From a virus, in IMG/VR virus record IMGVR_UViG_3300033141_000652, positions 1 through 38,424 of that record: a stretch of 38,424 bases of DNA. The stretch is one strand, 5' to 3'. The notes under the pieces are model-generated. The model searched no databases, was not told the DNA's origin, and worked only from the letters and a program-made list of their open reading frames with translations. Positions 6,960 to 16,028 of the stretch are shown here, piece by piece (the stretch's first letter is position 1; each line of letters opens with the position of its first letter). The position numbers and the translations under genes are program-made.

Positions 6960-6988
6960 TTGACTTTTTGTGTGCTGTGTGGTATAAT
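6960..6988 (+). promoter_or_regulatory. Sigma-70-type promoter
   Basis: TTGACT at 6960-6965, a 17-base spacer and TATAAT at 6983-6988. Only one base differs from the consensus hexamers. It lies 53 bases upstream of the gene at 7042, which has a strong ribosome binding site, and should drive the second replication block and the structured RNAs downstream. Confidence 0.85.
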
Positions 6989-9264: not shown

Positions 9265-9308
9265 GGAGGATTACCCTACAAGCAGAGATAAAAACTGGTA
9301 AAAAGGAA

Positions 9309-9560
9309 GCGTGAGATATAGACGTACATATATCATTGCTTATCACGCAATAATAATAGTACAACGTTATGTGGGTTGTATTAGTGAAAAGTTAAAGGAA
9401 GTAAGGTTTAAGTCTCACGGAAGCAAGGCTCAGATAAATCAAGGCAGTATGGAGAACGGTAGTAAGGCAGAACCCCGAAGCTGAGTCGGAGGGAATGACC
9501 TCAAGAAAGTTATGTTTCTTCCTTTAGTCCCAGAACTTTTGAGGCTTCCTGCTTGGGAGG
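9309..9560 (+). ncRNA. Structured RNA candidate U (upstream segment)
   Basis: Non-coding stretch after the 8755 gene. Visible helices: GCGTGA 9309-9314 with TCACGC 9343-9348, enclosing GATATA 9315-9320 with TATATC 9329-9334; AGTACAAC 9358-9365 with GTTGTATT 9375-9382; GGCTCAG 9427-9433 with CTGAGTC 9481-9487; CCTCAA 9499-9504 with TTGAGG 9539-9544. CGTGAGA 9310-9316 can also pair with TCTCACG 9413-9419, which would break the first helix, so two conformations are possible. No open frame of coding character was seen. It may be an independent RNA or the 5' domain of the element that follows. Confidence 0.5.
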
Positions 9561-9584
9561 GTTAATCAAATAATAAAACTCTAG

Positions 9585-10041
9585 TAAGGAGTTAATTGAA
9601 TAGTGCTGGTGCGTTAAAGCGTAGGAACCTGCTACGTCACTTTGAGAAACGTTAAATGCGGAAGAAAGTGCAGCCAGCACAAGGAGTGCAACTTAATAGT
9701 GGTGTGCTGGTGGTGGAATTAGAAGCAGGTAGTTGTAGCAGCATCAATAAGTCTAACTATCCTCTAAGGAAACGTAAATCCAGCACAAGTGCCAGTTACC
9801 TGAAAGACTGACGTATGTCGGATTGAGTAGGGGCGAGGCTCATCATAGCGTAGCCTAATGGACTTGGCTACTAACTGGCACAAACCTGAGACTGAGGGTG
9901 TCCGTGGTCGGTGGTGACTTTCGAGAAACCACAAGTGATTATGAGGGACAAACGGCGTGGGTGTTAGGTCTCAGGAAGGTCAGGTGTGGTGCAATAGGAA
10001 AGTTAAATGGTGTTGTCCTCAGTACACCAGCCTCACCTGAC
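9585..10041 (+). ncRNA. Large structured RNA element, copy A
   Basis: Five helices are visible in a row: P1 GTGCTGG 9603-9609 with CCAGCAC 9674-9680; a second P1-type helix 9704-9710 with 9780-9786; P2 GTGCCAGTTA 9789-9798 with TAACTGGCAC 9872-9881; P3 CCTGAGAC 9885-9892 with GTCTCAGG 9968-9975; P4 GTCAGGTG 9979-9986 with CACCTGAC 10034-10041, extended by TGGTG 9987-9991 with CACCA 10025-10029. Inner hairpins include CGTAG/CTACG, CACTTT/AAAGTG, GTAGCC/GGCTAC and GTGGT/ACCAC. Copy B repeats the stems and linkers but not the loops. It does not match any RNA family that I can place; GOLLD- or ROOL-type phage RNAs are comparisons by size only. Confidence 0.7.
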
Positions 10042-10056
10042 TACCAGAATAAAGGA
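10029..10056 (+). repeat. 28-bp direct repeat, left copy
   Basis: Matches 10238-10265 at 27 of 28 positions. It holds the 3' arm of helix P4 (CACCTGAC 10034-10041) and the ribosome binding region of the zinc-ribbon gene at 10063. The two copies bracket that gene. Confidence 0.85.
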
Positions 10057-10062
10057 GATAAA

Positions 10063-10239
10063 ATGAAGATTACTAATAGGGAACGGCAATTACCAGCTAG
10101 GTCTAAGTGCACTGATGTTATATGCCCCGCTTGCAACATTGAATGTATTGGTGAGGTAGCCGTCGGGCAATTGGATATCCATTGTAATTATTGCGGTCAT
10201 AATTGGCGAGTTGATACCAAGGGTAAACCTATATTCTAG
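10063..10239 (+). CDS. 58-aa zinc-ribbon protein between the RNA copies
   Basis: ATG at 10063 follows AAAGGAGATAAA. The product has VICPACN and CNYCGHNWRVD about 30 residues apart, a zinc ribbon ending in a short basic/aromatic strand, as in many nucleic-acid-binding ribbons. The frame is open further upstream to 9898, but that part lies in structured RNA and has no ribosome binding site. The gene is bracketed by 28-bp direct repeats, the right copy starting inside its stop codon. A role in binding the neighbouring RNA is only a guess from position. Confidence 0.7.
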   Translation: MKITNRERQLPARSKCTDVICPACNIECIGEVAVGQLDIHCNYCGHNWRVDTKGKPIF

Positions 10240-10265
10240 CCTCACCTGACTACCGGAATAAAGGA
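10238..10265 (+). repeat. 28-bp direct repeat, right copy
   Basis: Differs from the left copy at one base (G for A at 10255). Carries CACCTGAC at 10243-10250, which can replace 10034-10041 as the 3' arm of P4. RNA copy B begins 2 bases later. Confidence 0.85.
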
Positions 10266-10266
10266 A

Positions 10267-10658
10267 TAAGGAGTTAATTGAATAGTGCTGGTGTTCTGTA
10301 TATCGGACACGTTAGAAGCGGGAAGCGGTAGCACCGTGAGAACCGCCCCGTGTAGCGCACGGGAATAGGACTGACAGGCAGTATAAAGTCCGAGCCAGCA
10401 CAGGTGCTAGTTACTTTTAGAGGCTCACGCTAGGTATCGTGATATATGGGTTGAAACTGTACGGGCATACCCCTCTAACTGGCACAGACCTGAGATGGGA
10501 AGACAGATGTAATGGTTTATCTATGTGGGGTGTGCTCTATGAGAGCGGACTGCCAATAGTGGGGTCTCAGGTCACAAGGTCAGGTGGGGTGCAAAAGTCT
10601 ATAGCACTTAGGGGGCATGGCCTGAAAAACGGACAGAACCCCCCAGCCCCACCTGACC
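10267..10658 (+). ncRNA. Large structured RNA element, copy B
   Basis: The first 27 bases (10267-10293) are identical to 9585-9611 of copy A. Helices: P1 GTGCTGG 10285-10291 with CCAGCAC 10395-10401; P2 GTGCTAGTTA 10404-10413 with TAACTGGCAC 10476-10485 (one G-U where A has G-C); P3 GACCTGAGA 10487-10495 with TCTCAGGTC 10565-10573; P4 a 12-bp helix 10578-10589 with 10647-10658. P1 encloses CCCGTG/CACGGG (10347-10352/10358-10363), GGACT/AGTCC (10368-10372/10387-10391) and GCGG/CCGC. P3 encloses GCTCT-ATG-AGAGC. Only one P1 domain is present, against two in copy A. Loop sequences are unrelated to A, so the pairing rather than the sequence is kept. Confidence 0.7.
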
Positions 10659-10678
10659 ACTACTTAGGAGATTGAGAG

Positions 10679-11008
10679 ATGAAATTCAGAAAGAAACCTG
10701 TGGTAATTGAGGCTATGCAGTTTGATGGTTCTCACTCATCTGCCGAGGAAATCATAGAGTGGGTAAATAAGGCAACTGGATTTATTTCAGGCCGAGTATA
10801 CTATATTTTTCTCCGAGAAACAAGAAATGGGGCAATCCGTTATGAACGGTGCCCCGTCTCCGAAGCTCTTATATATGAAGAGGATAGAAGGGATGCAACT
10901 GTGGTAAAACAGAGAGCAAAGAACAATGCTGTTTATAGATGGGTGTTTCGTGTTCCTATTGGAACAGTTTGCCATAACCTATCAATAGATTTAGATAATT
11001 TGAGGTAG
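10679..11008 (+). CDS. Conserved phage protein (KPVVIEA family)
   Basis: 109 residues; TTAGGAGATTGAG precedes ATG. The opening MKFRKKPVVIEAMQFDG is the hallmark of a very widespread small phage protein of unknown function (remembered pattern K-P-V-x-I-E-A-x-Q). Family members usually run 80-130 residues, so this is complete. It follows RNA copy B directly, with its ribosome binding site about 10 bases after P4, so folding of P4 could affect its translation. Confidence 0.75.
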   Translation: MKFRKKPVVIEAMQFDGSHSSAEEIIEWVNKATGFISGRVYYIFLRETRNGAIRYERCPVSEALIYEEDRRDATVVKQRAKNNAVYRWVFRVPIGTVCHNLSIDLDNLR

Positions 11009-11984: not shown

Positions 11985-12060
11985 TAAATGCGGGCAACCG
12001 CTGAAGAAGGGCAATATCAATTTCGGCCAATATTTCAGATTGAAAAATGAGAAAGATTAA
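11968..12060 (+). CDS. 30-aa Cys-pair microprotein
   Basis: ATG 11968 lies within the end of the upstream gene and the stop lies within the start of the YopX gene. The product is MKGFCSKCGQPLKKGN plus a basic tail: a single CxxCG zinc knuckle. Overlap at both ends suggests coupling, or a chance frame. Confidence 0.4.
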   Translation: MKGFCSKCGQPLKKGNINFGQYFRLKNEKD

Positions 12061-12427
12061 GTTTAGAGCATGGGATAAGACTACAAATACAATGTATCCT
12101 AATGTAGAACAAAGATTGGATTTATTTTTGTATAATCGTGATATGGAGATTATGCAGTATACTGGCTTGCTTGATAATCAGGGCAAGGAAGTATATGATG
12201 GGGACATACTCAGTGTAGAAGTGAAACTAGGGCTTGGGGATATCGACCAAACATATACTGTGTTTGTCAGATGGGATGATAAGCGTTCTGGTTGGGTATT
12301 CCAAAGAGTAGATATGGATACATATCTTAAGCCCAGTGAATGGGTGTCTGAGTGCAATGTCATTGGTAACATCTACGAAAACCTAGAGCTTTACAATATC
12401 GTACAAAATAAGGGGGTTGAAAGGTGA
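12047..12427 (+). CDS. YopX family protein (copy 1)
   Basis: 126 residues. Diagnostic order: MRKIKFRAWDK at the N-terminus, MQYTGLLDNQGKEVYDGDIL in the middle and VIGNIYENLEL at the end. YopX proteins are widespread in phages of Gram-positive and other bacteria; their function is unknown. Overlaps the second YopX gene as GTGA. Confidence 0.9.
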   Translation: MRKIKFRAWDKTTNTMYPNVEQRLDLFLYNRDMEIMQYTGLLDNQGKEVYDGDILSVEVKLGLGDIDQTYTVFVRWDDKRSGWVFQRVDMDTYLKPSEWVSECNVIGNIYENLELYNIVQNKGVER

Positions 12428-12798
12428 GGGAGATTAAGTTTAGGGTGTGGAACGAACGGCGATGGTTACATGATTGGGAATATGCAATTAAACCAGATGG
12501 TAAGGTAATGCTATATGAACCGCTAGATGATGAGTGGGTGACTGAATTTCCTTATGTCGTTACCTTATCTTGGTACACTGGCCTCAAGGACAAGAACGGT
12601 AGAGAGATTTACGAAGGAGATATAGTTGAACTCTATAAGTATCAAGGGGAAGCATTATATTGTCTTGCTCTCACGACAGTAGTCAAGTGGAATGAAACAG
12701 GGTTGAACTTCAATATCTGGCTTCCACAGGATGGGAAAGAATTCTGGAAAGTGGCTAGCAACATCTACGAAATCGTGCAAAGTAAGGATGAAAAATAA
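12424..12798 (+). CDS. YopX family protein (copy 2)
   Basis: 124 residues from GTG 12424, which overlaps the stop of copy 1. Keeps REIKFRVWNE, YTGLKDKNGREIYEGDIV and SNIYEIV. Identity with copy 1 is limited outside these motifs, so the duplication is old or the two came separately. The stop abuts the next ATG. Confidence 0.9.
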   Translation: MREIKFRVWNERRWLHDWEYAIKPDGKVMLYEPLDDEWVTEFPYVVTLSWYTGLKDKNGREIYEGDIVELYKYQGEALYCLALTTVVKWNETGLNFNIWLPQDGKEFWKVASNIYEIVQSKDEK

Positions 12799-14143: not shown

Positions 14144-14286
14144 TGAAACAAGAAGTAGAATGCTGGAACTGCGGATATAAAGGCATGTTAAACATAATTA
14201 ATATAAAGACAAAAAATGTTGTTTTGCGTAGGGCTATCTGCCCTACATGCAAAGCAGTTATAATAATTGGTGCAAATAGAAGATAA
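14143..14286 (+). CDS. 47-aa zinc-ribbon ORF inserted between the UDG halves
   Basis: ATG 14143 overlaps the UDG stop (TAATG), and its stop overlaps the polymerase ATG in the same way. It encodes CWNCGY and CPTCKA around a basic strand region, a zinc ribbon. Its two edges coincide with the break in the UDG domain, so it was either inserted there or grew into the break. Confidence 0.65.
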   Translation: MKQEVECWNCGYKGMLNIINIKTKNVVLRRAICPTCKAVIIIGANRR

Positions 14287-16028
14287 TGAAAGTAAATGTA
14301 ATAAGCCAATACCACCCTGCGGCTTGTTTGCACAATCCTAGGTTGTGGGCAGTGATGCTTAATGACTGGGAATCTTTGCCATCTGTGGTACCATGCGATT
14401 ATGTAATTGTTGACGAACAACAAACCCACGTAGATGATTATGTCTCTCTTGATACTGAGAATACACCATCAGGAAAACTTGGTGATTGGTCGATGGCATC
14501 CAGGGGTGCAGACGGGCAGATAAATGTTGAACGCTTCTTTGGGCCACGCAAATACAAGCGCTTCGATAAGCCAATTGTTATGCACAATGCCAAGTGGGAT
14601 ATACGAGTTCTCAAAAAGAACGGCATGGAACCACCAGCAGATTTCCACGACACGATGATAGCCGCCTATTGCTTAGATTATGGACAGCAATCATCAAAGG
14701 AATCAGCAAACAATACTAGCGGCGGCAATATGGTCGGCGGGTTAGGGTTAAAGTATTTAGCTAGGCGGCATCTTGGCATTAAGATGCAAACGTGGAATGA
14801 TGTTAAAGACCGCCCAGAATTGGTGCCAGAATATAATGATATGGACAGCGTAGCCACTTATTTGTTGTGGGAAAAATGGCTGCCAAATATACCACAACAC
14901 TACTGGGATATTGATATGCCCTTGTTGCCTACCATTATGAGCATGGAAGATAGGGGCATCATGGTTGATGCAAACTTCCTTGAAAAATATGCTGACAGTT
15001 TGCAGAAACAACAAGCCTCCATGGATATGCCCGTCAATGCTTACTCCCCACAGCAAATACAAAGCTACATTTACGGCACATTAGATATAGAACCGTGGAA
15101 ATTCTCTGATTCTGGGGCACCATCCACTGATGCCGATGTACTAGAGCAGATAGACGACCCGATAGTCAAGAGCATACTAAAATACAGAGAACTACATAAG
15201 GAAATAAGTACCTACGTAAATAATTATGTAGATGGCATGGCTAAGGATGGGAGAATACACCCAGAGTTTAAGCAAGTACGAACATCTACTGGCAGGCTAT
15301 CTTGTAGTAATCCAAACCTTCAAAATGTGTACAAAGAAGGAGACATGCGTAGGCTATTCATAGCTCCAGCAGGTAAGAAACTAATAAGACTTGACTATGA
15401 CCAGCTTGAGTGGCGCTTTACTGCTGCCCTAATTAAAGACGAGGCAATGCAAGAGCTTCTCAACTCTGGTATGAAGATACATCAGATTACCTCAGACCGC
15501 ATGAACATAAAATATGATGATGCGAAGCACATGAATTTCTTAATGATGTTTGGTGGAACAGCCTGGCGCATAGCGCGGGAATTGGGGTGTTCATTAAGTG
15601 CGGCCAATGATTTGGTATCTGATTACTTCAGGGCATTCCCAGGGTTAAAGCGGTATATGGATGAAATGCGTGAGCGGGTGCGTAGTGAGAAGCAAGTAAT
15701 TAACGCCTTTGGCCGCAAACGCCGCATAGATGCCATGTTCGCTAACGATTGGAGAATAAGACAAGAGGGTGAGCGTGAAGGAATCAACATGCCAATACAA
15801 GGCGGCTCCGCTGAGATAGTAAAGCTCGCCATGATAGATTTACATAAGAATTTCTCTGCCCCAATGATACTTCAAGTGCATGATGAGCTTCTCTTTGAAG
15901 TAGATGCTAAGGAGGCTAATGAATATGCACAATGGCTGAGAGAGTATGTACCAACGATAACAGAGTTCATGGGTTCTACATTCCCAGTACAAGTGGGTGT
16001 AGGAAATAATTGGAAGGAAGCAGAATAA
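14286..16028 (+). CDS. polA: Family A DNA polymerase with UDG C-terminal motif at its N-terminus
   Basis: 580 residues. Residues 1-30 (VISQYHPAACLHNPRL, then NDWESLP) are the end of a family 4-type uracil-DNA glycosylase. The 3'-5' exonuclease follows: DTE (56-58), HNAKWD (Asp105), YNDMD (183-187). Polymerase motifs: TSTGRLS (334-340), motif A LDYDQLEWR (369-377), O-helix K414-x3-F418-x3-F422 and motif C VHDE (531-534). F422 replaces the Tyr that most enzymes have (E. coli Tyr766). F418 at the Phe762 position means good ddNTP use is unlikely to be blocked. It copies phage DNA with proofreading. SPO1-type phages carry an intact UDG-like domain on PolA. Confidence 0.92.
   Translation: MKVNVISQYHPAACLHNPRLWAVMLNDWESLPSVVPCDYVIVDEQQTHVDDYVSLDTENTPSGKLGDWSMASRGADGQINVERFFGPRKYKRFDKPIVMHNAKWDIRVLKKNGMEPPADFHDTMIAAYCLDYGQQSSKESANNTSGGNMVGGLGLKYLARRHLGIKMQTWNDVKDRPELVPEYNDMDSVATYLLWEKWLPNIPQHYWDIDMPLLPTIMSMEDRGIMVDANFLEKYADSLQKQQASMDMPVNAYSPQQIQSYIYGTLDIEPWKFSDSGAPSTDADVLEQIDDPIVKSILKYRELHKEISTYVNNYVDGMAKDGRIHPEFKQVRTSTGRLSCSNPNLQNVYKEGDMRRLFIAPAGKKLIRLDYDQLEWRFTAALIKDEAMQELLNSGMKIHQITSDRMNIKYDDAKHMNFLMMFGGTAWRIARELGCSLSAANDLVSDYFRAFPGLKRYMDEMRERVRSEKQVINAFGRKRRIDAMFANDWRIRQEGEREGINMPIQGGSAEIVKLAMIDLHKNFSAPMILQVHDELLFEVDAKEANEYAQWLREYVPTITEFMGSTFPVQVGVGNNWKEAE

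Follow-up and report, generated by a model that had tools for sequence, protein, structure and literature searches.

The results presented here define a previously undescribed RNA family, a four-hairpin array found in three phages, and the element is almost certainly a structured RNA. Two copies, A and B, lie in the window (the whole IMG/VR virus record analysed here, 38,424 bp, classed linear, from a phage known from metagenome sequence alone), and further copies lie in L006 and L010, two IMG/VR contigs whose PolA is 52-55% identical to that of the window (Table 1). Comparison of A and B with each other and with the L006 and L010 copies, together with folding and coding analyses, shows them to be copies of one structured, noncoding RNA element lying in the sense orientation within the early operon, each with four hairpins (P1 to P4) whose closing stems of 8-13 bp are separated by linkers of 1-4 nt. 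Conservation is confined to the closing stems, the linkers and the beginning of P4; the hairpin interiors diverge freely.

In the window, genes point rightward up to about 18.6 kb and leftward beyond. The rightward (early) block carries RNase H, RepA-like ATPase, Cas4-like, Sak4-like ATPase, UDG-like and PolA genes, among which the RNase H, Cas4-like and UDG-like names are putative readings of the sequences. The element lies inside this block, after a DUF6847 gene that itself stands behind the Cas4-like gene, and about 2.6 kb downstream of its best upstream promoter-like match, a good sigma-70-like promoter at 6960-6988. No strong promoter was found directly upstream and no intrinsic terminator on the + strand around the element. 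Each flanking gene is intact and has a start and a stop of its own, and the annotated genes around the element include no recombinase or similar mobile-element gene. Elsewhere in the window, PolA begins with 35 residues (14286-14390) similar to the YHPAA motif at the C-terminus of family 4 uracil-DNA glycosylases, and the best cellular matches to this UDG-like start are from Chloroflexota, which hints weakly at the host. The window also holds two neighbouring YopX-like paralogues whose starts are repeated (12047-12798), and duplicated gene pieces (11005/11215 and 11035/11316).

Table 1. Parts of the four-hairpin element in the window and in two related phages.
Feature	Position	Strand	Sequence or remark
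Upstream domain P0	9268..9570 (approx.)	+	long outer stem GAUUACCC..CAAGCAG / CUGCUUG..GGGUUAAUC; MFE z -3.4; noncoding
Copy A leader	9585..9602	+	UAAGGAGUUAAUUGAAUA; identical in B, loosely similar in L006 and L010
Copy A P1	9603..9787	+	outer arms GTGCTGG/CCAGCAC; second leader+P1 copy inside
Copy A P2	9789..9881	+	GTGCCAGTTA/TAACTGGCAC
Copy A P3	9885..9975	+	CCTGAGAC/GTCTCAGG
Copy A P4	9978..10042	+	conserved inner motif GGUGCAA .. CCAGCC
28-nt end of A (P4 3' arm + tail)	10029..10056	+	repeated at 10238-10265
Small gene (58-aa zinc-ribbon)	10063-10239		between copies A and B
Second copy of 28-nt A end	10238..10265	+	after small gene
Copy B leader	10267..10284	+	
Copy B P1	10285..10401	+	GTGCTGGT/GCCAGCAC
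Copy B P2	10404..10485	+	GTGCTAGTTA/TAACTGGCAC
Copy B P3	10487..10573	+	GACCTGAGAT/GTCTCAGGTC
Copy B P4	10578..10658	+	GGTCAGGTGGGGT/GCCCCACCTGACC with GGGGUGCAA .. CCAGCCCC
L010 element	L010:1860-2362		
L010 P1			GCTTGCTGG/CCAGCAAGC
L010 P2			CTGCCAGCTA/TAGCTGGCGG
L010 P3			GCCTGAGCC/GGCTCAGGC
L010 first P4			CCTGCGGGGTGAAA..CCAGCCTCGCAGG
L010 second P4			GGGACTGGGGTGAAAA..TAGCCCCAGTCCC
L006 element	L006:127-562		
L006 P1			GCTTGCTGGGGT/ACCCCAGCAAGT; followed by small extra hairpin
L006 P2			TTGCCAGCCA/TGGCTGGTAC
L006 P3			short, GTCCTGG/CCAGGAC
L006 P4			AAACTAGGGGTGAAAA..CGCCCCTAGTTT

Both window copies open with the same 27 bases (9585-9611 and 10267-10293) and contain the stems in the same P1-P2-P3-P4 order, as an earlier note on this DNA had reported, and their closing stems, linkers, leader and P4 base (GGGGUGMAA .. 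YAGCCYC) are nearly identical. The linker CAC-AA-GTG given in that note is likewise present, but its place in A follows the last P1 arm (9780-9787), and the 64-nt P1 interior quoted for A belongs to the first of two P1-like hairpins. P1-like arms occur in A at 9603-9609, 9674-9680, 9703-9710 and 9780-9787; since leader and P1 are duplicated inside A, P1 has two possible folds, a single long nested hairpin (9603-9787) or a pair of hairpins. Noncoding sequence extends beyond the two proposed copies, starting at 9265 and including the long-stem domain P0, whose membership in the element is unproven; no counterpart of P0 was seen in L006 or L010. The loops do diverge as claimed, but the interiors of P2 and P3 are unrelated and not merely varied, their likeness being at the level of shuffled sequences (p 0.28 and 0.95), while the P1 interiors are weakly alike (p 0.03-0.04, against shuffled sequences) and P4 is alike only beside its stem. 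P2 and P3 do carry the C-G to U-G changes; the argument for pairing built on them is weak, as roughly one in two such single changes would preserve the pair by chance, and because the stems are nearly identical and the interiors unrelated, the comparison of A with B alone could not prove pairing.

Arrangement and folding both set the element apart from shuffled sequence. When successive stems (arm length 8 or more) were counted as a chain if joined by 0-4 nt, two four-stem chains were found in 9265-10700 and none in 5853 dinucleotide shuffles, of which 8 reached a three-stem chain. All element copies fold better than shuffles (z -2.5 to -4.8), with z scores of -3.0 for A, -2.5 for B, -3.8 for L006:127-562 and -2.8 for the noncoding gap L010:1854-2378 (-4.8 with flanks). 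No protein is common to the copies, and no reading frame is conserved: the ORFs inside A and B have codon usage within the range of spurious ORFs, and the L010 element contains no + strand ORF of at least 45 aa. We also rejected a leader peptide starting from UUG after AAGGAG (LNSAG...), which is short and whose frame is not kept.

Duplications recur: A contains a second P1, L010 has two P2 and three P4, and the window carries the whole element twice, showing that the element grows via hairpin duplication. The 28-nt end of A occurs again after the small gene, as a direct repeat flanking that gene, which points to a past duplication or insertion; judged from the sequence, the second occurrence looks like a remnant of another, deleted third RNA copy or a gene-insertion scar. 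A small zinc-ribbon gene lies beside the element in each phage, but we dropped a link between the two, as such genes are frequent in these phages and two that were compared are unrelated.

A search with PolA yielded five related phages (51-55% identity), among them L006 and L010; the annotated phage records that were searched contained no close relative of this phage group. Searches by sequence, using motifs of the window type, yielded no homologue of the element. These comprised exact or gapped patterns in IMG/VR for the P1-P2 and P2-P3 junctions, the P2 arms, P4 and the leader, and a leader pattern in genome_contigs; nor did blastn match the window element to phages and plasmids, or the L010 and L006 copies to phages. 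Fold scores, stem searches and visual inspection first drew attention to the copies in L006 and L010, which keep the P1-P2-P3-P4 order with changed stem letters. In both phages the element starts 6-14 nt past a stop codon and lies among small genes, 2-3 kb upstream of the RNase H gene; its genomic position differs between the three phages, and no neighbour gene is common to them.

Over the sequence retrieved, no P4 match was found in the other relatives, the early region being covered in L007 and L009; the L008 contig begins at the Cas4-like gene and is therefore uninformative on the presence of the element. A search of 400 Chloroflexota genomes under strict filters gave no true copy; this phylum was chosen as a guess because the UDG-like PolA start matches Chloroflexota proteins best. 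The Cas4-like protein of the window had no relative in IMG/VR or in these 400 genomes. R1 matches in chromosomes L088 and L100 were rejected because they lie inside coding genes, as were three-hairpin chains at other loci, which represent coding sequence or chance. Gene insertions in L007 are likewise not this RNA: its PolA contains an apparent intein (L007:11122-11966, ending VVITGNC), and an HNH-type endonuclease gene interrupts its Cas4-like gene (L007:5595-6099). Two further hairpin loci were recorded. In L010, a further noncoding stretch (1254-1405), directly upstream of a zinc-ribbon gene, holds GCCTGAG/CTCAGGC and, after it, a hairpin with GGGTCG..CTTCTGT; this may be a P3-P4 copy in reduced form, which the P4 model does not match. 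A lone intergenic hairpin with a 14-bp stem occurs at L095:10619-10703 (G003:C1), in a relative where the array was not found.

The homologues maintain pairing even where both partners of a pair have changed. Across the four copies, 94.2% of the cells pair in an alignment of 39 closing pairs, and 15 of the 39 core pairs change on both sides, values that 0 of 500 shuffles reached on any measure; sliding the partner by one base lowers core pairing to 35-44%. This core alignment comprised arms and linkers only, with interiors replaced by N, linkers trimmed to a common length, and L010 P2 and A P1 paired in the outer, nested reading. In P4, for which five copies were available, 7 of 12 pairs change on both sides. 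G-U pairs outnumber A-C combinations in the core by 9 to 1, which points to the + (mRNA) strand as the folding strand. A P1-P4 descriptor, composed like the alignment rows after the copies had been seen, matches only the four elements in 2.77 Mb (million strand-bases) and none of the shuffled stretches (0/441,482 for L006 and 0/480,151 for L010). The sample is thin, comprising four full copies from three phages.

A P4 model recovers its training copies, except the first P4 of L010 under default filters, and detects a P4 on which it was not trained at L010:2848-2920, directly upstream of the next gene (E 0.019 in 1.3 Mb; 0.001 with filters off). Trained without L006, the model still finds this site (E 0.0013) but misses L006, where the P4 loop is longer; it is thus the stems in their order, rather than P4 alone, that support the assignment of L006. 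Built from A and B only, it places two of the L010 P4s at ranks one and three over 30 kb, non-significantly.

The window has no match to any Rfam 15 family at gathering score, so the novelty proposed by the earlier note stands. Among the five relatives, the scan returned only a tRNA-like match in L010 (8912-8983, Rfam tRNA, 30.7 bits), between replication genes; L006 gave two sub-threshold matches, DicF and RAGATH-8. The GOLLD covariance model had no match at gathering score or at E <= 10, the ROOL model none in the window or in the copies of the relatives, and the EAR model none in the window. Group I and II intron models gave no match either, and no gene is interrupted. With these searches, the two-sided pair changes in two other phages and the lack of a conserved protein, the proposal of an unlisted functional structured RNA is supported.

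The explanation that best accounts for the whole, to which we assign a probability of about 0.5, is that the element is an autonomous, trans-acting RNA module that is cut from the early transcript. The searches revealed neither a promoter nor an intrinsic terminator belonging to the element, from which we infer that it is transcribed along with the early operon. Host nucleases would then excise it, and the excised element would work in trans as a stable RNA, in which the four stacked stems may form a rigid core and the variable arms an outer surface; scaffold, decoy or regulator are possible jobs in early infection. We read the conserved core, free interiors, changing neighbours and dispensability in relatives as marks of an autonomous trans module, and consider a trans role of an RNA processed from the early transcript to stand slightly short of even odds.

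The array could also be a cis-acting leader that controls translation or stability of the following small gene; P4, adjacent to the ribosome binding site, would be its output. In the five cases, 20, 20, 16, 18 and 30 nt separate the end of the P4 3' arm from the start codon that follows, a spacing that also fits cis control, and a lone P4 in L010 precedes the binding site of another gene. Yet the downstream genes are unrelated, the element is far bigger than usual leaders, and packed phage genomes place the end of any intergenic element near the next gene. We favour the trans reading over cis control of the next gene, which is possible but distinctly less probable.

An improbable alternative is a processive antitermination or polarity-suppressing RNA acting on the early-operon polymerase, as HK022 put RNA/EAR do. 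Such a role would suit a mid-operon element on the coding strand that has no fixed neighbour and no promoter of its own and occurs more than once in one operon; the element is, however, much larger, lies at least 2.6 kb behind the promoter, matches no Rfam antitermination family and is dispensed with by two relatives. Marginally less probable still is selection at the DNA level, in which the inverted repeats would be recombination, replication or hairpin-insertion sites and covariation would be kept for DNA hairpins. The hairpin and whole-element duplications, the 28-nt direct repeat around a gene, the exchange of interiors between copies and the differing genomic positions fit this idea, but the 9 to 1 excess of G-U over A-C favours folding of the transcript, and no recombinase or comparable mobile-element gene is annotated nearby. 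Functionless chance hairpins spread by simple tandem duplication would agree with the unremarkable interior folds and the shared ancestry of A and B, whose stems are not independent, but are very improbable given the absence of four-stem chains from the shuffles and, above all, the compensated stems in two other phages.

In a further reading, which we regard as rather unlikely, the array might combine handles and payloads, each fixed closing stem serving as a processing or binding handle and each interior as a fast-changing payload. The two P1 in A, the two P2 and three P4 in L010 and the two elements in the window are the duplications cited for it; were it true, duplicating and diversifying hairpins would give the phage a set of varied RNAs against host factors.

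Large structured phage RNAs are few, and their function is mostly unknown. What is new here is a covariation-supported RNA with an unusual plan of fixed closing stems, free interiors and duplicating hairpins, and its compact core provides a ready search model that turns a hunch into a testable RNA family.

The plan of the element invites comparison with several known systems. Like group I and II introns, the element has core stems that are conserved, peripheral extensions that vary and joining segments that are short; it differs from them in lacking an interrupted gene and a 34-nt domain V. HK022 put RNA and EAR antitermination elements are structured RNAs of about 70-120 nt inside operons; the element is similarly a coding-strand structured RNA within an operon, untied to one gene, but measures 390-460 nt. 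The resemblance to GOLLD and ROOL suggested by the earlier note was backed by no test and is limited to size and phage context, and by the Rfam models, the only test applied, the element is neither. GOLLD is a long noncoding structured phage RNA with a conserved part and a freely varying part, ROOL is a large phage or prophage RNA with many helices and of unknown function, and multimer formation characterises both (PMC12286853). Like GOLLD, the element is a long structured phage RNA with a fixed and a variable part, but it is about half the size of GOLLD and has no tRNA nearby; like ROOL, it is a large, many-helix phage RNA, but one built as a linear row of four separately closed hairpins.
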